Assembly: GCA_016870395.1 (NCBI GenBank)
Contig: VGBT01000019.1
Location: 1 to 49,742, forward strand
DNA: 49,742 nt
Origin: Actinomycetota bacterium
GTDB lineage: Bacteria > Actinomycetota > Acidimicrobiia > IMCC26256 > JAENVU01
Reading direction: 5' to 3'
In this document: positions 27,807 through 40,405 of the stretch, in pieces
Numbering within the stretch: the first letter of the stretch is position 1
Layout: every line of letters starts with the position of its first letter
Notes under the pieces: model-generated
Told to the model about the DNA's origin: nothing
The model's input: the letters and a program-made list of their open reading frames with translations, nothing else
The model's database searches: none
Position numbers and translations under genes: made by a program

Positions 27807-28050
27807 GTCTCGGCCTCCGATCGCGCTGCGATCACCGGGTCTGCTTCGTCGGCTCGTCGGCTCGTCGGGACACCGGGGGCGGCGGCCGTATCCCCCGGAG
27901 AGCCCGGGATGTCTGGTGCGGAACGGTAGCCGACGGGCGCTGGAGTGCCGATTTTGCCCCTGGTTCGGGGGGCCTATGGCCGGAGCGCGCATTTCCTCGC
28001 TACAGTGCGTGGTCTTCGAACGCGCGCTGGGTATTGGCGGGCGGACGCTG

Positions 28051-30129
28051 ATGAAGGCTGAGGCGCAGCCAGCTGGGGGATCGAAGACCGCAATGAGACC
28101 GCTCGACTATCTCCGGATCCTGCGTCGGCGCTGGTGGGTGCTCCTCGTCGGCACGATGATCGGTCTGGCCTTGGCATTCGCGACCCAGCCGAGCGAAAGG
28201 AAGGTGATCCGCGAGACCGCGCCCCGAGTGCAGTATCGTGCAACGCACCTTCTGCTCGCGGACCCGTCGTCACTGGACAAGGGCGTTGCTGGCACGATCG
28301 GATACGACCGCCTCGCGCTCCTGACACTCGCGGGTGAGGTCCCGAAGACCGCGATGAAGAAGCTGGGCGCCACGCCGTTCCCCGCGGTGCTCAACGAGCA
28401 GTCCGGCGAGGAGACGAGCGAGGGTGGTGAGAAGGGCTCGCCGAACGCGCAGCGTCAGCGCGCGCGGTCGACCGATCCTTCCATCCCGAAGTTCCGCTTG
28501 GGTCAGGGAGCGATCGCGGTCTACGGCAGTTACGGGGTGCTGTCTGTTGCCGCGGTGCCTGACCCGTCTACGGGCGCACTCGCGATCACGGCGACGGGTC
28601 CAAAGGCGGAGGCCGCGCGAGCGGCCAACGTGTTCGCCGAGACGTTGGTCGAGTACCTCGACAGCCTCGGTGCCGAGCAGTACGACACGCGGGTCAGAGA
28701 GCTCACCAAGAAACGTAACGATCTGGTCGCTCACGGGGTTTCGCTCGACCAGCAGATGTTCATCTCCGGTGGCGACCCGGCCCGTTGGCAGGTCTTGGCG
28801 GCGCGCCGTGCGCAGAACATGGGCGAGATCGAAGACGTCAACCTCGAGCTCACGGCCGTGACGCGCGCTGGTGCGCAGAAGGCGGAGCTGGGTACGCTCG
28901 AGCCGGCATCGGACAAACGCGTCACGTTGATCGTGTCGCCGGGCGGCAGCGCCGTCAGCCCGAGCCAGCGCCTCCTGCTCGGCGGCGCGATCGGGTTCAT
29001 GCTGGCGCTTGCGATTCTCCTGCTCATCGAGATCCTCGGGGCACGGGTCCGCGACGTCCCGGGCACGGAAGGTGCAGCCCGAATGCCGGTGATCGCGGAG
29101 ATCCCGGTCGTGAAGATCACGCGGGCTGACCGGTTCCGCGTGGCGACGGCTTCCGAGCCGGCCTCGCTCACCGCAGAGGCGTACCGATCTCTGCGGACCT
29201 CGATCCTCGCCATGTGGCAGCGGCATCCGAAGAACATGGATTCCGCCCACGGCAACGGCCATGGAACCGTCGCGGGCGGCGCGAACGGAAACGGGCATGC
29301 GAACGGCAACGGAGACGGGCATGCGAACGGCAACGGAGACGGGCATGCGAACGGCAACGGAGGTAGTCGAGCGCTGCACTCTCTGCTCGTCACCTCGCCC
29401 GGGCCGGCCGAGGGCAAGTCGATCAGCGTCGTGAACCTAGCCGCCGCGTTCGCCGAGACGGGGGTGTCGGTGATCGTGCTCGATGCCGACTTCCGACGTC
29501 CGACGCTCTGCCGGTACTTCGATCTGCCGTTGGCGCCGAATCTGGGTGACCTCGATCTCGACTGCCGTCCGGAGGACCTCGAGGCGGTGCTCCAGGACAC
29601 CGGGATCCCGGGCGTGCGGATGGCCGCGAGCGCCCCCGGCAAGTCGGATCCCGGCCATGCGATCGCCGTCGCCAAGGCGGCCGTGCGCGCGGCCCAGCAC
29701 CTTGCCGATTTCGTGATCGTCGACTCCCCTCCGATCCTGCTGGCGAACGATGCCGCCGACCTCGCCCTCGCAGTGGACGCGTCGGTCCTCCTGGCGCGGT
29801 TCGGATGGACGCGGCGCAGCGGCGTCGTCGCGGCGGCCGAGTTGCTCCGCCGGCTCGAGGCGACCGTGATCGGCGTTGCGATCGTCGGTGCCGAGCACGG
29901 AACAAGGGCGGGCTACTACGGCTACTACGGCTACTACGGCTATGGCTACGGCTATGCCCATCCCGGCGAGGTGTCGATCACGCAGCGGCTGCTCCCGTGG
30001 AAGACCGGCCGCAGTCCCGGGCGCCCGGACCGCAGGGAGACGGTCCCGACGCACGTGTCCCAGCCCACCGGCGACGACCCAGATCAGGAACCGAAGTCGA
30101 ATTCGGACCCCGACGAGCCCTGGGTCTGA
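28051..30129 (+). CDS. Wzz/BY-kinase fusion: chain-length regulator and tyrosine autokinase
   Basis: 692 aa. An N-terminal Wzz domain has TM1 at PLDYLRILRRRWWVLLVG and TM2 at GGAIGFMLALAILLLIEIL. A cytoplasmic BY-kinase domain follows, with Walker A SPGPAEGKSIS (K456), Walker A' VIVLDADFRRPT (D478, D480), Walker B FVIVDSPP (D558), and a C-terminal Tyr cluster (about 620-637). Between TM2 and the kinase lies an Asn/Gly/His-rich linker encoded by a 24-bp tandem repeat. Wzz and kinase are one chain, as in proteobacterial Wzc. By family it controls polymer length through Tyr phosphorylation. An alternative start is the ATG at 28093. First gene of the plus-strand operon. Confidence 0.92.
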   Translation: MKAEAQPAGGSKTAMRPLDYLRILRRRWWVLLVGTMIGLALAFATQPSERKVIRETAPRVQYRATHLLLADPSSLDKGVAGTIGYDRLALLTLAGEVPKTAMKKLGATPFPAVLNEQSGEETSEGGEKGSPNAQRQRARSTDPSIPKFRLGQGAIAVYGSYGVLSVAAVPDPSTGALAITATGPKAEAARAANVFAETLVEYLDSLGAEQYDTRVRELTKKRNDLVAHGVSLDQQMFISGGDPARWQVLAARRAQNMGEIEDVNLELTAVTRAGAQKAELGTLEPASDKRVTLIVSPGGSAVSPSQRLLLGGAIGFMLALAILLLIEILGARVRDVPGTEGAARMPVIAEIPVVKITRADRFRVATASEPASLTAEAYRSLRTSILAMWQRHPKNMDSAHGNGHGTVAGGANGNGHANGNGDGHANGNGDGHANGNGGSRALHSLLVTSPGPAEGKSISVVNLAAAFAETGVSVIVLDADFRRPTLCRYFDLPLAPNLGDLDLDCRPEDLEAVLQDTGIPGVRMAASAPGKSDPGHAIAVAKAAVRAAQHLADFVIVDSPPILLANDAADLALAVDASVLLARFGWTRRSGVVAAAELLRRLEATVIGVAIVGAEHGTRAGYYGYYGYYGYGYGYAHPGEVSITQRLLPWKTGRSPGRPDRRETVPTHVSQPTGDDPDQEPKSNSDPDEPWV
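29292..29363 (+). repeat. 24-bp tandem repeat, three copies, in the BY-kinase linker
   Basis: Copies at 29292-29315, 29316-29339 and 29340-29363 are identical except for the last base of copy three. Each encodes eight residues of the Gly/His/Ala/Asn type (around GHANGNGD). The repeat is in frame, so copy number could vary without breaking the kinase. Confidence 0.9.
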
Positions 30130-30148: not shown

Positions 30149-30442
30149 GTGCACCCGTCCGAGAGCGCACCGAAGACCCAACGCTACGTCCGCTCACCGG
30201 GCGCGCTGGTGCGCGAAGGCGCCTTCGGTGTCGTCGTCCTCGGCACCGAGACCTCCGACGCGGTGACGCTCTCGGGCACTGCTGCGGCGCTCTGGGACGT
30301 CCTTGCCGACCCGCAGACGTCGACGGCGGTCGTCGACGTGCTCGCGGAGCAGTTCGGACTCGCCCCCGAGCGCGTTCGTCCCGACGTCGATTCGGCGTTG
30401 GAACAGCTGGTGCAGCTCGGTGCGCTGGAACGCCGCGCATGA
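30149..30442 (+). CDS. PqqD-like protein (RiPP recognition element fold)
   Basis: 97 aa. YVRSPGALVREGAFGVVVLG, then TLSGTAAALWDVLADPQT, then a helical C-terminus (VRPDVDSALEQLVQLGALE) match the small PqqD winged-helix family. Relatives bind leader peptides of ribosomally made peptides or act as peptide chaperones. The GTG at 30149 lies 19 bases after the kinase stop; a TTG at 30137 is possible. Its stop overlaps the nucleotidyltransferase start. The partner is unknown. Confidence 0.75.
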   Translation: MHPSESAPKTQRYVRSPGALVREGAFGVVVLGTETSDAVTLSGTAAALWDVLADPQTSTAVVDVLAEQFGLAPERVRPDVDSALEQLVQLGALERRA

Positions 30443-31539
30443 CCTTCGACACCCTGGGCACCATCGGCTCCTACGGACTCCCGGGAGCGGCGCCGGTCTC
30501 GATCGGGCCGCTCGGCGCGCCCGAATGGGGCTCGTTGCTGCGCGCCGCGGTCGACCAGCGAGCGGTTCCGCTCGTTGCGCATGCCGCGGCAGGGGGATGC
30601 CTCGAGACGTCCTCGGCCCAATGGGACGAGCTCACCTCCATGAACGAGCAGTCCATGCACGCATGCGTGCGCCTCGAGCGGGCCGCGCTCGAGGTGGTAT
30701 GGGTGCTCCGCGGTGCGGGAATCCCGCACCGGCTGCTCAAGGGAGCCGCGGTCGCCCACCTCGACTATCCGGACGCCTCGTGGCGTGCCTTCGGCGATGT
30801 CGACGTGCTCGTGCGCGCCGATCGCTATGACGACGCGATCCACGTTCTCGAGCGTCTCGGCGGACGTCGGCGCTACTCCGAGGTTCGCCCCGGGTTCGAC
30901 AGCCGCTGGGGAAAGGGCGCCTGCGTCGTTCTCGATCGCGGCGTCCAGGTCGACGTTCATCGGAGCTTCGTCGCTGGCCCCTTCGGTCTCACCATCGATC
31001 TCAACGACCTCTTCGCCGTTTCCGAAGCGGTGCTCCTCGGTGGTGTCGAGGTCGACGTGCTCTCGCGAGAGCACCGACTGCTGCACGCGTGCTACCACGC
31101 TCTGCTCGGCGACGCGCCGGCGCGCCTCGTGCCGTTGCGCGACGTGGCGCAGATGGCGCTGAGCGGAACGCGTGACTGGGAGGAGCTCTGGGGGTGCGCG
31201 AGCCGCTGGCACTCACGAGCCGTCGTTGCGCGTGCCATGCATGCGAGTGCCACAGCCATGAACGTGATCCTGCCCGAGCCGGCGCGCTCGTGGACGGTCG
31301 ACTACGTCGCCGACCGGTTCGAGGCGCGCTCTCTCGATGCGTATCTCGGTCCCGGTCGCTCGTACGCCCGTCAGATGGCGGCCGGGGTGCACGCGGTGCG
31401 CGGGCTCGGAGCCAAGCTTGCCTACGTGCGGTCCATGCTCGCGGTGGATGCCGACTACGCACGCCGCCACGACGGAGGGTACCGGCGGCGGGTACAGCGG
31501 GCTTGGCGTGCGCAGCGCAGCGCAGGGGCGGCCCGATGA
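30439..31539 (+). CDS. Nucleotidyltransferase-family protein (PF14907-like)
   Basis: 366 aa. The motif HRLLKGAAVAHLDYPD followed by FGDVDVLVR (D120, D122) is the active-site pattern of this uncharacterised nucleotidyltransferase family, seen in lasso-peptide and exopolysaccharide loci. The rest is helical. A small PqqD protein precedes it and an HprK-like kinase lies two genes downstream, the usual partners of this family. The reaction is not known; transfer of a nucleotide to a peptide or sugar is a guess. It overlaps its neighbours at ATGA. Confidence 0.75.
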   Translation: MTFDTLGTIGSYGLPGAAPVSIGPLGAPEWGSLLRAAVDQRAVPLVAHAAAGGCLETSSAQWDELTSMNEQSMHACVRLERAALEVVWVLRGAGIPHRLLKGAAVAHLDYPDASWRAFGDVDVLVRADRYDDAIHVLERLGGRRRYSEVRPGFDSRWGKGACVVLDRGVQVDVHRSFVAGPFGLTIDLNDLFAVSEAVLLGGVEVDVLSREHRLLHACYHALLGDAPARLVPLRDVAQMALSGTRDWEELWGCASRWHSRAVVARAMHASATAMNVILPEPARSWTVDYVADRFEARSLDAYLGPGRSYARQMAAGVHAVRGLGAKLAYVRSMLAVDADYARRHDGGYRRRVQRAWRAQRSAGAAR

Positions 31540-33104
31540 GCACCGACCGGTGGGCTGACCGCGACGTGTTGCCGCTCGCCAACGCGGAGCGGCTCGCGTG
31601 GCCGAAGGTGCGCACGTGGCCTCGGTACGTGATCGGGCTCGGCGCCGTGGCATACGTGGCGATGATCGTGATCGGCGTCGGCACCGGATCCTTCGAAACG
31701 CTGATGGCGGTCCCGCTGATCCCCGCTCTTGGCTATGCAACCTACTGGATCGCACGATCGGTCGCCCTTAGCGAGCACGACCACTCCATGATCGAGTTCA
31801 TCCTCGCGGCCTTCGCCGCCAAGATGATGGGAACGCTCCTGAGAGCGCTCGTAGTGAGCCAGCTCTACAACAACCAGTCGGATGCCTACGACTTCCACCT
31901 CTGGGGGCAATACTACGCACCGTACTTCCGGCGCCTCGACTTCTCTCAGGTGCCCTCCTTCAGCGGAACCGACTTCATGCGCGCGCTCAGCGGGATGGTG
32001 TACGCGGTCACGGGCTCCTCGAAGTTCAGTGGCGGGATCGTCTTTTCGTTCCTCTCGTTCCTCGGCTTGCTCCTGTGCTGGCGCGCCTTCCGACGCGCGA
32101 TTCCTGATGGTGACGGCTATCGATACGGCTTGCTCGTCCTCTTCCTCCCTTCGTTGCTCTACTGGCCGTCGTCGATGGGCAAGGAGGGATTCTGCCTCTT
32201 CGGGATCGGCGTGGCCTCGTACGGATTTGCGCGGATCCTGACTCGCAGGATTTTTTCGGGCCTCGCGCTCTTCGCGCTGGGCGTGTTCCTTCTCTCGCTC
32301 CTGCGACCTCACATCGCGCTCACGCTCTTTAGTGGTGCCGCGCTCGCCGCGGCGGTGGGGAAGTCCCGGTCCCCTGGGGCCAAGACGTCCCTCGTCCGTA
32401 TGGTGGTCTTCGGTGCTCTCATGGTGACGTGGACGATGCTCGCGTCGTCCACGTCGTCCTTCTTCGGGGTCCCGAGCCTGAATCAGGAATCGATGAACCA
32501 GATCCTCGGCGAAGCCGAGGGGAGAACCGACGAAGCCGGTTCCAAGTTCGAGCCGGCCTCGATGTCCCATCCCGCCACCGTGCCGCTCGCGGCCGTGACC
32601 GTGCTCTTCCGGCCGTTCCCGATCGAGGTCCACAGCCCCGTCGCTGCGGCGAGCGCACTGGAGGGCGTCTTCCTCTTCGGGCTGTGTTGCGTGTCGTGGC
32701 GACGGCTTAGGTCGATTCCGCGGTGCATGCGTGAGAGTCCGTACACCGCGTACTGCATCGGGGCCCTCGTCGCGTTCGTCTACGCGTTCTCGGCCTTCTC
32801 GAACTTCGGCATCTTGGCTCGCCAGCGGTCGCAATTTCTCCCGCTGTTCCTCGTCCTGGTCTGCCTCCCGGTGTGGACCCGAACTGACGCGCTGTCGACC
32901 GAGGAGGCACTCAGCGCTCGTGACGCGGATCCCGACGATCCGTATGCAGAGATGGTGGCGCCTCCCGTCTACCAGGAGATCCCTCCGGTCGACCCGTACG
33001 AGCACGTCGGTCCCGGCCCCGAGCCCTACGTCGTCGTCGACGAGGATCCGTACGCCCGCTTCGCCGATCCGGGCGCACCGGACACCCGTCGTGGCCGCGG
33101 CTGA
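31536..33104 (+). CDS. Polytopic membrane protein, candidate Wzy-type polymerase
   Basis: 522 aa with about ten TM helices and a long soluble loop after SSTSSFFGVPSLNQ. The C-terminal part has NFGILARQRSQFLPLFLVLV, the N-x-G-x-x-x-R-x-R pattern near the last helices of EPS polymerase and ligase-like proteins. An acidic, Pro/Tyr-rich cytosolic tail of about 70 residues follows. The start is the ATG at 31536, overlapping the preceding stop. Codon use is less GC-biased than in the neighbours, as often seen for polymerases. Function is inferred from topology and context. Confidence 0.65.
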   Translation: MSTDRWADRDVLPLANAERLAWPKVRTWPRYVIGLGAVAYVAMIVIGVGTGSFETLMAVPLIPALGYATYWIARSVALSEHDHSMIEFILAAFAAKMMGTLLRALVVSQLYNNQSDAYDFHLWGQYYAPYFRRLDFSQVPSFSGTDFMRALSGMVYAVTGSSKFSGGIVFSFLSFLGLLLCWRAFRRAIPDGDGYRYGLLVLFLPSLLYWPSSMGKEGFCLFGIGVASYGFARILTRRIFSGLALFALGVFLLSLLRPHIALTLFSGAALAAAVGKSRSPGAKTSLVRMVVFGALMVTWTMLASSTSSFFGVPSLNQESMNQILGEAEGRTDEAGSKFEPASMSHPATVPLAAVTVLFRPFPIEVHSPVAAASALEGVFLFGLCCVSWRRLRSIPRCMRESPYTAYCIGALVAFVYAFSAFSNFGILARQRSQFLPLFLVLVCLPVWTRTDALSTEEALSARDADPDDPYAEMVAPPVYQEIPPVDPYEHVGPGPEPYVVVDEDPYARFADPGAPDTRRGRG

Positions 33105-33978
33105 CCAAGCCGCGGCGGTACGGCGCGCGCTCGAGTCGTCCGGCTGGGCTCGCGGGTCGCGCCTGGCGCTGCTCGACTTCGACGTGACCACGTACAGCGA
33201 CGATCCTGCGGTCTTGGAGCTCGTCGACGCGCTCTACGGCGCGGTGTTGGCACCGGGCGTCGGCCACCACGTGCTCTCGTTGGGTCGCGCGTCCGACGGT
33301 GAGCGCGCCGGGGTCGTCGTCGCACTCGACGGCGTGCCGATCGTCCGGACGACGGCTCCGTCGATCGCCTTCGCGCATCTGGTGTTCGAGGCCAACCAGC
33401 AGGCGCTCCTGGCGACGAGCGGGGTGGTGCTCCACGCGGCTGCCGCGGTGCTGGGGAAGGTCGCCGTGGTGCTCCCGGGGCGGATGGGTGCCGGGAAGTC
33501 GACCTTGGTCGCGGGGCTCGCGGCCGCCGGGGCGGGATACCTGACCGACGAGATCGTGGCCCTCGCGCCGGAGAACGGGTGTGTCCGCCCCTATCCGAAG
33601 CCCGTGTCGCTCGGGATTCCGCCTCCGGAGCTCGACGGGATCACCCGGGGTGCTCCTGCCGGCGCGTCGGAGTACTTCACCGGCGTCCTCGTCCCTGCCC
33701 ACGCGCTGCCCGGGGGTGTCGGATCGCCGACACCGCCAGGTCTTGTCGTGCTGCCCACCTACGAGCCGGACGCTCCGGTCGCGGTGCAACGGCTCGATCC
33801 GGTCGAGTCGGTGGTGGCGCTGGCCGAGCACGCGTTCCATCTCGAACAGCCCGGTGGGTTGCGAGCGCTCGCCGAAGCGTTTCGGGACGTCCCGTGCTAC
33901 CGGCTCACGGGGGGCTCGCTGCCGGGCGCGGTCAACGCCGTGCACGAGCTGACCGGGCGGGCCGTGGCGTCGGCATGA
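33091..33978 (+). CDS. HprK-like kinase
   Basis: 295 aa. The HPr-kinase/phosphorylase-type P-loop domain is preceded by VVLHAAAAVLGKVAVVLPG. The P-loop is GRMGAGKSTLVAGL (K136), and YLTDEIVAL (D153, E154) is the catalytic acidic pair. In lasso-peptide loci such kinases phosphorylate a peptide; HprK-related kinase A/B families occur with PqqD proteins in polysaccharide loci. No HPr or PTS gene is nearby, so a catabolite-repression role is unlikely. The start is the GTG at 33091, overlapping the preceding gene by 14 bases. Confidence 0.8.
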   Translation: MAAADQAAAVRRALESSGWARGSRLALLDFDVTTYSDDPAVLELVDALYGAVLAPGVGHHVLSLGRASDGERAGVVVALDGVPIVRTTAPSIAFAHLVFEANQQALLATSGVVLHAAAAVLGKVAVVLPGRMGAGKSTLVAGLAAAGAGYLTDEIVALAPENGCVRPYPKPVSLGIPPPELDGITRGAPAGASEYFTGVLVPAHALPGGVGSPTPPGLVVLPTYEPDAPVAVQRLDPVESVVALAEHAFHLEQPGGLRALAEAFRDVPCYRLTGGSLPGAVNAVHELTGRAVASA

Positions 33979-35081
33979 CGAGCATCGCGTGTGCTCCCGG
34001 CGCACGCCCTCGCGCCCGGGGGCTCGAGGAGGCGGTTGGTGTCGACGGCGAGGTGCTCGTCGCCGCCGCCGGCGAGGTGCACGTCCTCACCCCCACGGCT
34101 GCATTGCTCTGGGAGTGCTGCGACGGCGAGGCCACCGTGGCCGAGCTCAGCGCGGAAGTCGCCGAGGTCTTCGATCAGGAGCAGGAGCAGGTGCTCTCCG
34201 AGGTCGTGGTGCTCGTCGGCGAGCTCGAGCAACGGGGCCTCGTCGTGCTCGAAGGTTCTGGTCAGGGTCCGCGCGAGCCCGCCCTCCTCGCACCGAGCGC
34301 GTCGTGCGCGAGCTGCGGCGAAGGCCCTGGGTTCGAGGCCACGGTGCACGTGGAGTTGGGCTCCGTCGTCGCCTCGATAGGGGCGGACGCCACGACCGCC
34401 CGGGCCATCGAGCGAGCGTTCGGAGGGCGCGTGGTGGAGCGAGCCGAAGCCACCGGTCCGCCCTTGTACGGCATCGTGCTGCCGGAAGCGCGGTCAGGTG
34501 CTAGGTCCACGCCGCTCGCGCGGCTGCATCGTGGGGAGGAGGTGCTGTGCACGAGCCGCGATCCCGGTCGAATCGTTCGGGCGCTCGCGGCCCAGCTCGC
34601 GATCCATGCTCTGCCGGCGCGCGCCGTACGTCTCGATTCGTTGGTCGTCGGGCGGGCCGGGCGGGCGGTGCTGGTCCCGGTGCCCCCGCGGCGCAGCGCC
34701 TTCCTGCGCCGCCTCGCCGCCGTGGGGTGCTGTGCCGCCGACGTTCCATCGGCATGCGTAGACCCGGCACCGTCGGCGTACGCGCTCGTCGGAGCTGCGC
34801 AGCTCGCCCTTGACCTCACCTCGCTCCTCGAGGTCGCTGCGGCGCGGCGCCTCCTCGACGGCGAGCCACCGGCGTTGCCCTGGGGCAACTACGAGATCGT
34901 AGCGGTCGCTACCAGCGGCGATCCCTCACCGGCGAGCGTGCTCGCGGAGCTCGTGCCGCTGAGACACGGGGCGGGGGACTCCGAGGCGGCGGCGGCGGTT
35001 CCTGTGCTGCTCGAGCTGCTCGACGCGGTACCGATCCTGACTGCGCACGATCTCGACGGCATTGCCGGGATCCTCACCTGA
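33975..35081 (+). CDS. PqqD domain fused to a degenerate HprK-like domain
   Basis: 368 aa. Residues 15-95 resemble PqqD (VLTPTAALLWECCDGEATVA...). A linker carries C111-x-x-C114. The C-terminal domain parallels the HprK-like fold: VRLDSLVVGRAGRAVLVPV aligns with the LHAAAAVLGKVAVVLPG part of the previous gene. Where that gene has GAGKST, this one has PPRRSAF (about 237-243), so ATP binding by the normal loop is unlikely. I read it as a catalytically dead partner or adaptor of the active kinase. The ATG overlaps the previous stop. Confidence 0.7.
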   Translation: MTSIACAPGARPRARGLEEAVGVDGEVLVAAAGEVHVLTPTAALLWECCDGEATVAELSAEVAEVFDQEQEQVLSEVVVLVGELEQRGLVVLEGSGQGPREPALLAPSASCASCGEGPGFEATVHVELGSVVASIGADATTARAIERAFGGRVVERAEATGPPLYGIVLPEARSGARSTPLARLHRGEEVLCTSRDPGRIVRALAAQLAIHALPARAVRLDSLVVGRAGRAVLVPVPPRRSAFLRRLAAVGCCAADVPSACVDPAPSAYALVGAAQLALDLTSLLEVAAARRLLDGEPPALPWGNYEIVAVATSGDPSPASVLAELVPLRHGAGDSEAAAAVPVLLELLDAVPILTAHDLDGIAGILT

Positions 35082-35108: not shown

Positions 35109-36404
35109 TCAGAGGATCTCGCCGCGTAGGTCGCGCCCGCGCAGCACGCCCTTCGTGTCGAAGACCAGGGGTGCGTGGCGACAGATCAGGTCCGGGTCGA
35201 ACTCTGGATGATCGACGAGCAGGATCGCAAGGTCGCACTGCTCGAGGCGCCGCGCGTCGAACGGCACCACGCTACACGGCAGGTCGGCATGCGCCGTCAC
35301 CGGGATGTGCGGGTCACACGCCTCGAGCGCCGCGCCGAGCGCGGCGAGGCGGTCGGCGACCACGACGCTCGGCGACTCCCGCCAGTCCGACGTGGAGGCC
35401 TTGTAGGCGACGCCGAGCAGGAGGATGCGCGTTCCCTGCACGGCCCGTCCATGACGATTGAGCAGGCCGGTGACCCGTCCGACTACGTGGTCGGGCATGT
35501 GCTCGTTCACGTCGTTGGCGAGCTCGACGAACCGGAACGTGTGTCCGGACCGTCTCCGCACGCGCCACGAGAGATAGGAGGGGTCGACGGGGAGGCAATG
35601 CCCGCCCACTCCCGGTCCGGGCGTGAAGCGCATGTAGCCGAACGGCTTGGTGGACGCGGCGTCGATCGCCGACCAGATGTCCACGCCGAGATCCTCGGCG
35701 AACATCGCCAGCTCGTTGACGAGCGCGATGTTCACGTGCCGGAAGGTGTTCTCCAGGAGCTTGACGAGCTCGGCCTCGGCGGGCGTGCCCACGGGCACGA
35801 CCTTGTCGACCAGCGCGCCGTAGAACGCCTCGACGACCCGACACGAGGCCTCGTCGAGGCCCGAGACCACCTTCGGGGTGTTCTGGAAGGTCCACTGGAT
35901 GTTGCCGGGATCGATCCGCTCCGGGGAGTAGCCGAGGAAGAAGTCGCGGCCGGCGAGCAGGCCCGACTCCTCGAGCACCGGCCTGACCAGCTCCTCGGTG
36001 GTACCCGGGTACGTCGTCGACTCCAGCACGACCAGCGCGCCGGCGCAGAGCACGGCGCTCAGTGCCCGAGCGGCCGACTCGACGTACGTGAGGTCGGGGC
36101 TGCCGTCTCGCAGCGGCGTGGGAACCGAGATCACGGCCACGTCGAAGCCGGCGAGGCCGTCCACGTCGTCGGTCACCGTGTAGCCCGCCGACAGGGCCGC
36201 CGCGACCTGCTCGTCCGGGACGTCTTCGACGTAGGAGTGGCCGTCGCGCAGGGCGCCGACCCGTCGCGGGTCGACGTCGAAGCCCACGACCGTGAAGCCG
36301 ACTTCGACGGCACGCATCGCGACCGGCAGCCCCACGTAGCCCTGGCCGACGATCATGACCTTGGCGGTGCGGTTCTCGATCCGCTCCAACACCGCTGTGC
36401 TCAC
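35109..36404 (-). CDS. UDP-sugar 6-dehydrogenase (WecC/WbpA/TuaD-type)
   Basis: 431 aa. The NAD-binding motif is VMIVGQGYVGLP (about 16-27), the central domain has TYPGTTEELVRPVLEE, the catalytic C270 lies in GPGVGGHCLPVDPSYLSW, and a UDP-binding C-terminal domain follows. The family oxidises C6 of UDP-GlcNAc, UDP-ManNAc or UDP-Glc in two NAD steps to the uronic acid. The sequence fits the HexNAc branch better, but the substrate is not proven. The GTG at 36404 overlaps the stop of the Tat protein gene. Confidence 0.9.
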   Translation of the reverse strand: MSTAVLERIENRTAKVMIVGQGYVGLPVAMRAVEVGFTVVGFDVDPRRVGALRDGHSYVEDVPDEQVAAALSAGYTVTDDVDGLAGFDVAVISVPTPLRDGSPDLTYVESAARALSAVLCAGALVVLESTTYPGTTEELVRPVLEESGLLAGRDFFLGYSPERIDPGNIQWTFQNTPKVVSGLDEASCRVVEAFYGALVDKVVPVGTPAEAELVKLLENTFRHVNIALVNELAMFAEDLGVDIWSAIDAASTKPFGYMRFTPGPGVGGHCLPVDPSYLSWRVRRRSGHTFRFVELANDVNEHMPDHVVGRVTGLLNRHGRAVQGTRILLLGVAYKASTSDWRESPSVVVADRLAALGAALEACDPHIPVTAHADLPCSVVPFDARRLEQCDLAILLVDHPEFDPDLICRHAPLVFDTKGVLRGRDLRGEIL

Positions 36405-37432
36405 AGCGGGCAGCAGTAGATCAGGTACACGGCGCTGATGCACGCGCCCTGTCCCGTTTGCTGGTTGATCGACGCTCGGCCGTCAGCGGAGACCAGCGCC
36501 GACGCGCCCTCGGTGTCGGGCGACACGGAGCCGTCGCCCGAGACCGTGCCCCCGTCGCTGGAGCCTCCCGACCCGCTGCCGTCCCCGGAGAGGTCCGTCG
36601 CGTCCTGCGCGCCGGCCGAGCTCGACGCCGAGAGACCGCCGGAGCTGACGGACTCGGACGCGCTCGGAGTTGTGGTGGTGGTCGTCGTGGTGGCCGGTAC
36701 CGGCCGACCGTCTGTGCCCAGTGAGCCGGGCACCGCGCTCGGCGCGCCGTCACTGGTGACCCGCCCGGAAGACTCGCGGTTCTGGCTCTTCGGCGGGCAC
36801 GGGAAGATGAGGCGGCGGCCCACGTCGATTCCATGGGGCGGCAAGGGGTCGACGTAGCCCTCGGCGAACACGCTGTCTTTGTACGAAAACGACTTGCGGC
36901 TCCAGCCGATCACCATGCGGCACTGGCGACCCGCGGCATTGGGACCGGTGACCTCCGGCAGCAGCAGCGCCCACGCGTTTTCACCCTTCTGGGTGAGCTG
37001 GGGGCATACGGCGGGGAACTTGAGGTCGATCGCGGGGTTGTCGCGCAGCCACTGCTCGATCGCGGGCGGCAGGCGGTCGACGCCGTGGAATATGTCCTCG
37101 CCGGTCTCGAAATCTTTGTAGGTCGGTCGCGTCGAGGGGTTGTGACCGGGAACGCCTTTGGGGATCACCGGCGGCCGACATCGCCCCGACGGCTTGATCA
37201 CGACGAAGTAGTAGTTGACGCATGGTTGTTCGGTGCCGTTGTTGGTCGTCGCGTACGCCACGCTGGAGCGGATCACCGGAGCGGCCCAGACGATGCCGGC
37301 CGCGACCGCTCCGCGCGCGAGCACCTCGCGTCTGGACAGGCCACCCCCTGTCGCTGAAACGTTCTCGCTCGACACCAGCTCGGCACCCCCAGAGCCAGGG
37401 TCCTCGAAAGGGCCGTGGCCGCCTGTTTCCAA
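36401..37432 (-). CDS. Tat-exported protein with Ser/Gly/Thr linker and Cys-rich C-terminus
   Basis: 343 aa by the TTG at 37432; GTG at 37375 is an alternative start. The twin-arginine motif SRREVLARG (about 33-41) and a hydrophobic stretch ending near VAYA form a Tat signal. Residues of about 66-215 are an unrecognised globular domain (GWSRKSFSYKDSVFAEGYV...). A Thr run and a Ser/Gly/Asp-rich low-complexity region then lead to ACISAVYLIYCCPL at the end. The terminal 14 residues are hydrophobic with three Cys. Function unknown. It is directly upstream of the UDP-sugar dehydrogenase with a GTGA overlap. Confidence 0.75.
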   Translation of the reverse strand: METGGHGPFEDPGSGGAELVSSENVSATGGGLSRREVLARGAVAAGIVWAAPVIRSSVAYATTNNGTEQPCVNYYFVVIKPSGRCRPPVIPKGVPGHNPSTRPTYKDFETGEDIFHGVDRLPPAIEQWLRDNPAIDLKFPAVCPQLTQKGENAWALLLPEVTGPNAAGRQCRMVIGWSRKSFSYKDSVFAEGYVDPLPPHGIDVGRRLIFPCPPKSQNRESSGRVTSDGAPSAVPGSLGTDGRPVPATTTTTTTTPSASESVSSGGLSASSSAGAQDATDLSGDGSGSGGSSDGGTVSGDGSVSPDTEGASALVSADGRASINQQTGQGACISAVYLIYCCPL

Positions 37433-37693: not shown

Positions 37694-39628
37694 ATGCGAG
37701 CTAGATTCCGAAAGCTTCTTGTGGCAGGGGTGGTGGCAGCCCTCTCGGTGCCGGCGTTCGTTGCCGTCACGCCTAGTGTCAGCGGCGCTGCTCCGACCTG
37801 TGACTCGACGATGGCGCCGGTGGTGTTGGGCGGCCAGGGAGCTATGACGACCGGGTGTGTGACCGTGGCCGCCGATCTGTCGCAGAACCCGGTCATCTAC
37901 GACTACACGACCGCTCGTTGGCACCAGGGTGCGATCCGTGAGTTCTCGTCGTGCACGTGGACCGCGGGCTCGACCAACGTCACCTGTGGTGTCGCGCAGG
38001 GGGCTCCCGGAGGCGTTGGAGACGTCAACCACAGCGTGACCGGAGGGGTGGCGAGCGCTGCGACCACGACGCTGCCGGCCTCGTCGGACGGCATCGCTGG
38101 GCGCTCGTTCATCGTGAGCCACAACGGTGGCAACAACTGGACGCTGTCCCAGGCCGCCGTGAAGGCGAAGGTGGGCACCGGGAAGTTCTGGATCGACAAC
38201 ACGACGGCGCGCAGTGTCGGCATCTGCGCCGGCTCGCCGATCCCCGCCTGCACCAAGGGCCTGAACACCACCAACGGGTCGACCACGGTCACCGCGACCG
38301 ACGCGGCCACGGCGAACTTTATTTCGGGCGACGTCGGGTCCGGCATCTCCGGCGAGTGCATCCCGTCTGGCGCAACAATCCTCTCCGTCACGAACACGAC
38401 CCAGGTGACGATTTCGGCCCCGGCGGACTGCACTTCGAGTGCCAAGCCGGGCACGATCAACGGCGGCGTCGACTCGCCCAGCTCGGCTCGGGTCATCCAG
38501 GACGCCGCGTACTTGGCGGGCGACCCCACGCTCACGAGCGCGTCGGCGGTCTTCAGCAACGCCGACATAGGCCTGTACGTTAAGGGTACCGGGATCCCGG
38601 CGAACGCCTACATCCTGTCGGTCAACAGTGCGTCCTCGGTCGAGCTGTCGGTTTCGCCGACGGCCGGCACCAAGGACCCTGTGGCGACCACGATCCTGGG
38701 CACCCCCAACGGCGTCGTCCAGATCGGTCGGCCGTCCCTCACCGCACCGAAGGACGGCGACCAGGTGTCGTCGCTCCTGACGGTCATCAGCCTGACCCCG
38801 GCCTTCGTGCCGGGTTCGCGTGCCTGCGCGGCGAACGAGCCCTCGGGCTTCACCCTCGCCGGTGCCTGGTACAACCCGGGCAAGTTCCAGAAGATGTCGT
38901 TCCTGGGCGCGACGGTGCCCGACGTCTCCAACGCGATCGGCCAGATCGTGTTCAAGACGGCGGTTACGACTTTCGCGGCCTACGTTGTCCGTGACGCGCT
39001 CAACCTCTACAGAGTGGAGTTCCCGAACGTTCCGACCAGCCTCGCGAACTGCGCGGGTGGCTCCGTGGCTGCGGCTTACTCGTTCAACGGCTCGACCACC
39101 TCGCAGGGGGCTCTCGGCTTGGGCGTGGGCCGTCCGGGCACCGCGGTCGTTCGTGGGCTCGACGACACGGGTAACTCGAATGTGGTGTACAACAACTTCA
39201 AATACACCAACGAGGTCGTCAACGTGAACCCGAACGGCGCGACCAGCGGTACCTTCACGCTGAACGTGCCTGCGTGCGGCGGCACCACGACGGCGATCAA
39301 GTACAACGACAGCGCCACGAACGTCACCAAGGCGCTGCGGCTGACCAACGCCGGAGGTGGGCCGCCGCCTCCGGGTGGCTACCCGTGCTCCCTCAACGTC
39401 ACCGCAGTCGCTGCTCTCGGCGGCAGTTGGGACATCACCTTCTCGGGTGCGTTCAGGGGCGTCAACGTCGGCGCCATAACCGTCGCCGCGGACAACACAG
39501 CTGGTGGTGGTGGCGTGACCGTTTCAACGATCACGCAAGGCAGCACCGACGCAACGCTGACCGCCTCCGGGGACCCCTGCACAGTGGTCAACCCGGCGTT
39601 GACCACCTTCCCGTGCGGTCTGGGCTAG
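37694..39628 (+). CDS. Large secreted protein with internal repeats
   Basis: 644 aa with an N-terminal signal peptide (RKLLVAGVVAALSVPAFVAV...), cleaved probably after about residue 30. The mature chain is Thr/Ser/Gly/Ala-rich with several Cys. Two repeats resemble each other: about 215-260 (GSGISGECIPSGATILSVTN) and about 285-325 (YVKGTGIPANAYILSVNSAS). No catalytic motif or LPXTG is seen. Strong upstream promoter elements suggest high expression, so a surface-layer, adhesin-like or glycan-carrying protein is possible. AAGGGG lies 7 bases upstream of the ATG. Followed by tandem hairpins. Confidence 0.8.
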   Translation: MRARFRKLLVAGVVAALSVPAFVAVTPSVSGAAPTCDSTMAPVVLGGQGAMTTGCVTVAADLSQNPVIYDYTTARWHQGAIREFSSCTWTAGSTNVTCGVAQGAPGGVGDVNHSVTGGVASAATTTLPASSDGIAGRSFIVSHNGGNNWTLSQAAVKAKVGTGKFWIDNTTARSVGICAGSPIPACTKGLNTTNGSTTVTATDAATANFISGDVGSGISGECIPSGATILSVTNTTQVTISAPADCTSSAKPGTINGGVDSPSSARVIQDAAYLAGDPTLTSASAVFSNADIGLYVKGTGIPANAYILSVNSASSVELSVSPTAGTKDPVATTILGTPNGVVQIGRPSLTAPKDGDQVSSLLTVISLTPAFVPGSRACAANEPSGFTLAGAWYNPGKFQKMSFLGATVPDVSNAIGQIVFKTAVTTFAAYVVRDALNLYRVEFPNVPTSLANCAGGSVAAAYSFNGSTTSQGALGLGVGRPGTAVVRGLDDTGNSNVVYNNFKYTNEVVNVNPNGATSGTFTLNVPACGGTTTAIKYNDSATNVTKALRLTNAGGGPPPPGGYPCSLNVTAVAALGGSWDITFSGAFRGVNVGAITVAADNTAGGGGVTVSTITQGSTDATLTASGDPCTVVNPALTTFPCGLG

Positions 39629-39781: not shown

Positions 39782-40405
39782 ATGCGTCGCTCCCGAACAC
39801 GTTTTCCGCTCCGATTCGCCGCACTGCTGGCAAGCATCGTCGTGCTCGCGGGCGTGCTCGTTCCGGGTGCTGCGCACGCCGACGAGATCATGCCCGGGGT
39901 CGACGTGCTCAGCGTGACGGTCACGGGTCCGGGTCTCGCCGAGCCGGTCCGCATGACCGACGAGGATGCAGCGACGTTCATGAAGGGGCTGGTGGGCGGC
40001 GGGGTTTTCGTGCCCGAGATCGAGCGCCCGCCCGAGGACGCGAAGATCTACACCGCGCGCTATGAGACGATGGTGAAGGACAACCCGGGCAAGGGCAAGA
40101 TCCTCTTCGCCTGGGACGGGACGAGCGGGTGGGTGTCGGGGGAGGGGCTGCTCGAGAAGCGCCAGTACATGATCGCCGGGACGGCCACCGTCGAGGCGAT
40201 GGCCGACGTGCTTGCCCAGGTCCAAGACCACCCCGGTCAAGACCCCGCGTCGAACGATGCCGCGTCGAGCTCGCAGGACGCCGACGACGACGGGTTCGGC
40301 CTCGCGCCTGTCGAGCTCGGAATCGGCGTCGCGGTGGCGGTGATCCTGGTCGGATGGGTCGTCTGGCTCCTGATGCGGCGCCGACGGGCGAGCCCCACCG
40401 GGTGA
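39782..40405 (+). CDS. Exported protein with C-terminal membrane anchor, unknown function
   Basis: 207 aa. A signal peptide ([23 protein letters not shown]) is followed by an extracellular domain of about 120 residues, an acidic Ser/Asp linker, one TM helix ([18 protein letters not shown]) and a basic stop-transfer tail RRRR. No LPXTG is visible. The ATG at 39782 is the start; the longer upstream frame passes through the terminator hairpins and is not real. Its stop overlaps the rfbA GTG. Function unknown. Confidence 0.75.

Follow-up and report, generated by a model that had tools for sequence, protein, structure and literature searches.

A PqqD-HprK kinase cassette in an actinobacterial polysaccharide island and its proposed Tat-exported protein substrate

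Polysaccharide loci in several phyla contain sets of PqqD, HprK-like kinase and PF14907 genes to which no substrate has been assigned, and the locus described here raises the question of what such a kinase might phosphorylate. It lies on contig VGBT01000019.1 of an Actinomycetota bacterium (assembly GCA_016870395.1; class Acidimicrobiia, order IMCC26256), in a stretch of 49,742 nucleotides that was analyzed as a whole and is referred to below as the window. There, a Wzz-like protein fused to a bacterial tyrosine kinase (BY-kinase) is followed by five genes, encoding a stand-alone PqqD (PqqD1), a nucleotidyltransferase, a membrane protein, an HprK-like kinase and a second PqqD (PqqD2) fused to a degenerate HprK-like domain. 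We lean towards the view that this cassette is a protein-kinase module for envelope proteins exported by the twin-arginine translocation (Tat) pathway, guided by a recognition element of the type known from ribosomally synthesized and post-translationally modified peptides (RiPPs). Its substrate is likely the Tat-exported protein encoded next to the neighboring dehydrogenase gene (Table 1). An earlier note on this DNA had guessed at a shared substrate, and the guess gains support insofar as the evidence points to this protein.

A Tat-exported protein accompanies the kinase across Actinomycetota

The Tat gene is located upstream of the dehydrogenase gene, with an overlap of 4 bases, and its product carries a twin-arginine motif, a hydrophobic stretch and an AxA-like site, SRREVLARGAVAAGIVWAAPVIRSSVAYA, as in a predicted Tat substrate. 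Dehydrogenase-linked Tat proteins recur at the loci of relatives. Their distribution was followed with a model of the Tat domain (A4) and a 49-residue model of the Tat signals that contain a conserved tryptophan (A5); the protein described here is the only match to such a signal in the window's genome. In the order, the kinase is matched at E <= 0.001 in 32 of 58 genomes and the Tat domain is found in 12, all of which have the kinase (12/12, hypergeometric p 1.5e-6). The two lie at most about 10 kb apart on one contig in nine of these genomes and on separate contigs in three fragmented assemblies. In the family to which the window belongs, four genomes combine the kinase with the nucleotidyltransferase and the Tat protein, and three have none of them in full; a fragment of 27 positions is the only match in G020, a member of this family.

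Searches of wider scope gave the same picture. Among 198 genomes of the class, nothing outside the order matched at E <= 1e-6 except three Tat signals, all of them beside HprK genes. Among 297 genomes of the phylum, A5 gave 14 matches in 10 genomes at E <= 1e-7, and the kinase (E <= 1e-12) was present in 10/10 of these as against 30/297 overall; with the three training genomes left out, it was present in 7/7 (p 2.5e-8, ancestry ignored). Seven of the 10 A5 matches outside the training genomes have a kinase gene at a distance of at most 2.5 kb, and two of these loci belong to genomes assembled as one contig (4.0 and 4.6 Mb). The association of Tat protein and kinase across Actinomycetota is strong.

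The arrangement of the genes varies. The order is PqqD-nucleotidyltransferase-Tat-HprK at locus L090 and Tat-PqqD-HprK at L251, and the Tat gene stands 150 bases ahead of HprK at L246. In G228, a genome that had been scored as a failure, an additional motif-bearing Tat gene was found 150 bases ahead of the kinase. In two species of one genus (L050 and L051), a Tat protein, an LPFTG segment and HprK form a single reading frame that is conserved over its full length. Motif-bearing Tat genes beside HprK were also found at four loci of the named collection (L253, L274, L279, L293); in one of them, Phytoactinopolyspora halotolerans (L274), a Tat-LPDTG protein with WVAPTV lies ~110-160 bases from PqqD, which is followed by HprK. 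At distant loci the Tat cargo is unrelated, often has an LPxTG-type end, and is encoded beside or within the operon. In G200 (L147, L148), two HprK genes with Tat partners stand on either side of a row of unclassified short proteins.

The motif in the Tat signal and the recognition elements

Recognition elements of lasso-peptide and LPP systems bind [Y/W]xxPx[L/V/I/F/A] via two hydrophobic pockets, and loss of the Y or the P weakens binding by LppB (Popov et al., 2026; PMC13381572). The sequence W-A-A-P-V-I in the Tat signal of the window fits this pattern. In the alignment underlying A5 (18 rows), RR is followed by W-x-x-P throughout; since five of the 18 rows were collected by a pattern demanding an aromatic residue and P, this invariance is partly built in. 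A control comparison was therefore restricted to 18 linked Tat proteins that had been collected through homology, adjacency or fusion only, and W-x-x-P was present in 15/18 of these as compared to 2/57 generic Tat signals (Fisher p 4e-11). I, V or L occupies the position two residues after the P in 46/54 collected signals, a set that was not cleaned of false matches. In the literature searched, no Tat signal was described as the ligand of a recognition element.

As the recognized part of the Tat protein, the evidence points to the signal peptide and not the tail. The earlier note had put forward the tail as one candidate for testing; the protein stands as the partner, and the tail does not, as it is modelled as a strand of a globular domain. 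In the AlphaFold model, the segment containing YCCP forms a beta strand (model residues 305-313), the other strands of the domain lying at 31-182, and a Ser/Thr/Gly-rich stretch is modelled as a disordered insert or loop before this last strand. The blocks are modelled with a predicted local distance difference test score (pLDDT) of 87-89, the overall pLDDT being only 61, and no relative of the fold was found in the PDB. YC[CKR]P had been considered as a C-terminal sorting signal and was rejected because the model places the segment as the last beta strand and the Ser/Thr-rich stretch as a preceding loop, which lies elsewhere in L046 and is missing from L044.

The putative reader of the motif is PqqD. 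The nearest NCBIfam model to PqqD1 is the lasso PqqD (E 1.7e-6), and its sole sequence match in the PDB is LppB (9x8z), at a weak E of 0.023. The PqqD fold and the positions of the leader-binding pocket are present (PF05402; Foldseek for PqqD2), and among 46 PqqD proteins compared, mostly hydrophobic residues occupy the pocket positions, and 31/46 have the leader-fixing aspartate. Directly before the PqqD gene, L241, L243 and L247 have a response-regulator-like gene, which suggests that the module is regulated there.

Several observations weigh against the proposed module and its substrate. The PqqD1 of the window has Ala, Thr and Ser at the equivalents of LppB F74, V35 and N33. The control comprises one order and 57 signals, and W-x-x-P may be general in actinobacterial Tat signals. 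The W is absent from the two fusions (one event in the same genus) and from L251. The Tat gene of the window is encoded on the opposite strand, 3 kb from the kinase, and the genome-level p values are inflated by shared ancestry. Motif-bearing Tat proteins remote from the cassette occur in G043, G085 (two), G032, G162 (C36) and G228 (two), and G087 has two matches at a contig edge and no kinase at E <= 1e-10. There is no invariant phosphorylation site, and the Ser/Thr found in 67% at position 8 after the W is within the part that is probably cleaved off. Nor was a fixed site found further on: past position 8, Ser/Thr never exceeds 31% at any position.

An unlikely alternative is that the cassette belongs to an LPP-like or other RiPP system whose phosphorylated substrate is a short peptide with its gene elsewhere, the Tat protein being an unrelated neighbor in a polysaccharide locus and W-x-x-P a habit of signal peptides. 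In LPP biosynthesis, a recognition element presents the leader, an HprK-like kinase polyphosphorylates Ser and a signal-peptidase-like enzyme cuts (PMC13381572), and LPP clusters combine the same recognition element, HprK kinase and nucleoside triphosphate (NTP) transferase in capsule loci. Furthermore, the HprK-PqqD-nucleotidyltransferase loci outside Actinomycetota (among L254-L305; Proteobacteria, Planctomycetota and others) have no W-x-x-P Tat partner nearby. However, the gaps of the cassette are too small for any precursor gene, no leader peptidase or exporter was identified among its genes, and neither a SipW-like signal peptidase nor an MsbA-like transporter appears in the Pfam matches of the scanned island genes. 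Moreover, the link to a Tat protein persists in minimal PqqD-HprK loci and as a gene fusion, and the LPP precursor consensus YxxPxVLxHQxIxFETxxS has only WxxPxI in common with the Tat signals, the remainder being absent.

The cassette and its polysaccharide setting

The BY-kinase gene and the five genes downstream of it were found where the earlier note had placed them, and the identities it had assigned to PqqD, the PF14907 protein, the HprK-like kinase and the PqqD with a degenerate HprK domain were borne out by Pfam and NCBIfam matches and by alignments (Table 1).

Table 1. Positions of the cassette genes, the Tat-exported protein and its signal motif in the window.
Feature	Position	Strand	Basis and remarks
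Wzz-like chain-length protein fused to BY-kinase, tyrosine-rich tail	27976..30129	+	TIGR01007 E 2.1e-25; first cassette gene
PqqD1, stand-alone recognition element	30149..30442	+	PF05402 E 3.9e-13
Nucleotidyltransferase	30439..31539	+	PF14907 E 1.2e-33
Polytopic membrane protein	31536..33104	+	At least 7 hydrophobic segments (simple scan)
HprK-like kinase	33091..33978	+	TIGR04352 E 2e-22, 79.6 bits (cut-off 200)
PqqD2 fused to degenerate C-terminal HprK-like domain	33975..35081	+	PF05402 E 7e-12
UDP-glucose/GDP-mannose dehydrogenase	35109..36404	-	PF03721 E 5.3e-38; adjoins Tat gene in most relatives
Conserved C-terminal segment SAVYLIYCCPL of Tat protein	36404..36436	-	Alignments; AlphaFold: last beta strand of domain
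Tat-exported protein, proposed substrate	36401..37375 (GTG start at 37375) or to 37432 (TTG)	-	Twin-arginine signal
W-A-A-P-V-I, recognition-element-type motif in Tat signal	37271..37288	-	Sequence, alignment, position counts

The Walker A motif, catalytic histidine and aspartate of HPr kinases are present in the HprK-like kinase and absent from the PqqD2 fusion protein. In an alignment with 17 relatives, H115, G135-K136, T138 and D153-E154 of the kinase are invariant; judged by these intact catalytic residues, the enzyme is active-looking. Likewise, the KG, DxD and DxH motifs of the nucleotidyltransferase are retained in 29/30 relatives. The HprK-like domain fused to PqqD2 lacks the Walker A lysine, the histidine and the DE pair in the alignment and is, as read from the sequence, catalytically dead. 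The AlphaFold model of this protein (pLDDT 80) matched PqqD and lasso B1 proteins at its N-terminus (5sxy, 5v1u, 6jx3) and, more weakly, HPr kinase at its C-terminus (Foldseek probability up to 0.92), none of the latter matches having E < 0.001. The membrane protein has no match in Pfam or NCBIfam; it is kept in the cassette across the order and is perhaps a polysaccharide polymerase. Close to the C-terminus of the Wzz-BY-kinase, the sequence YYGYYGYYGYGYGY is found.

The five genes are joined by overlaps of 4, 4, 14 and 4 bases and follow the BY-kinase gene after a gap of 19 bases. Among 20 fetched loci, the order Wzz-BY-kinase, PqqD, nucleotidyltransferase, membrane protein, HprK and PqqD-pseudokinase is kept in many families, and deeper relatives retain PqqD-nucleotidyltransferase-HprK-PqqD as a block. 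Since the gene order is kept in so many relatives, the cassette is not a chance assembly, and the independent scatter of its genes that the earlier note had named as refuting its reading was not seen.

This conserved layout, with one operon, short overlaps and the BY-kinase and membrane protein in fixed places in the order, would also suit a regulatory module in which PqqD binds the Wzz-BY-kinase, the membrane protein or a further polysaccharide enzyme, and their phosphorylation by the kinase controls chain length. We regard this possibility as somewhat more doubtful than a peptide substrate, as L240, L242 and L251 consist of PqqD, HprK and a Tat gene with no adjacent Wzz or BY-kinase, and the Tat partner is retained over a wider range than the BY-kinase. 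A standard lasso-peptide cluster with kinase tailoring, for which PqqD, HprK and PF14907 proteins are typical in paeninodin-type clusters, is highly improbable because the B2 peptidase (PF13471) is unmatched in the window's genome and the cassette has no room for a precursor; in keeping with the absence of lasso genes stated in the earlier note, the family matches of the scanned island genes included no cyclase or lasso precursor (a genome-wide cyclase search was not made). Where a B2 match above the cut-off does lie near an HprK (G305, G048, G314, G129), it adjoins a second, weakly scoring copy of HprK, and the Tat-linked HprK is at least 9 kb away or on a different contig.

The link to polysaccharide genes was likewise upheld. 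The cassette is part of a polysaccharide island (16249-41991) that lies within the ribosomal protein operon, flanked by map and infA. In the relative G021 (L106), RmlA and the next gene likewise stand directly before the gene for initiation factor IF-1, and in L032 (13381-17820) of this genome a protein of 1479 aa lies between cassette and dehydrogenase; it is absent in the window, and a related protein occurs in L050. The Tat gene of the window adjoins a gene for a large secreted-looking protein with no Pfam match (37721-39628), and a small protein (39782-40405) has a C-terminal hydrophobic segment and weakly matches an anti-sigma factor model (E 4.5e-6, under the cut-off).

Proposed mechanism and comparison with known systems

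Returning to the proposed protein-kinase module, we suggest that in the cytosol PqqD would grip W-x-x-P-x-[I/V/L] within the Tat signal of the preprotein, much as leaders are gripped in lasso and LPP systems and signals by Tat proofreading chaperones. The HprK-like kinase, aided by the PqqD-pseudokinase, would phosphorylate a Ser or Thr of the folded preprotein, and the PF14907 enzyme might cap the phosphate with a sugar or nucleotide. The PF14907-type protein of pseudomycoidin biosynthesis adds a hexose to phosphate, although an indirect route is also possible (PMC9266682). The folded product would then be exported by the Tat pathway and join or anchor the polysaccharide made by the surrounding genes. 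A role in surface polysaccharide would be consistent with the neighboring sugar dehydrogenase, with the Wzz protein and with the LPxTG ends that many partners have. In its general form, to which we give equal weight for and against, the proposal is that the Tat signal doubles as a RiPP-type leader in many Actinomycetota lineages, that varied folded cargo is phosphorylated and capped before export, and that PqqD serves as a Tat proofreading factor.

The first interpretation of this locus was thus supported in part: genes, context and shared substrate stand, the tail and the membership of the HPr-rel-A type do not. The cassette is an orphan kinase module whose parts are known and whose substrate class is newly proposed, and for one lineage a concrete substrate and a docking motif can now be put forward. 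The proposal connects recognition elements of the RiPP type with Tat export and suggests a new way in which surface proteins of actinobacteria may be marked for the polysaccharide coat.

Four known systems invite comparison, LPP and paeninodin-type kinase systems being the nearest. The Tat chaperones DmsD, TorD and NapD bind the signal of their cargo before export, and the small protein proposed here would likewise hold a cargo signal prior to export; however, the folds are unrelated, and the binder is accompanied by a kinase and not by a cofactor pathway. HPr-rel-A systems (TIGR04352/TIGR04353) share an HprK-related kinase and a PqqD-family protein with the cassette. Both scores are far below the curated cut-offs (kinase, 79.6 vs 200 bits for TIGR04352; PqqD2, 23.8 vs 35 for TIGR04353; PqqD1 is not listed), and loci outside Actinomycetota differ in having no W-x-x-P Tat partner. 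Paeninodin and pseudomycoidin biosynthesis (PadeK; PsmK, PsmN; PMC9266682) likewise combines an HprK-like kinase, a PF14907-type protein and a PqqD-type element preferring W-x-x-P leaders; here, in contrast, no B2 peptidase, cyclase or lasso precursor was found, and the product would be a protein.

The earlier-noticed resemblance to peptide systems with kinase tailoring holds for the LPP system (PMC13381572), in which a discrete recognition element, an HprK-like kinase and an NTP transferase also occur together in a capsule locus and a [Y/W]xxPx[hydrophobic] motif precedes a signal-peptidase-type cleavage site. The cassette described here differs from it in its actinobacterial hosts, in its second PqqD fused to a pseudokinase, and in its proposed substrate, a Tat-exported protein with variable cargo and W in place of Y.

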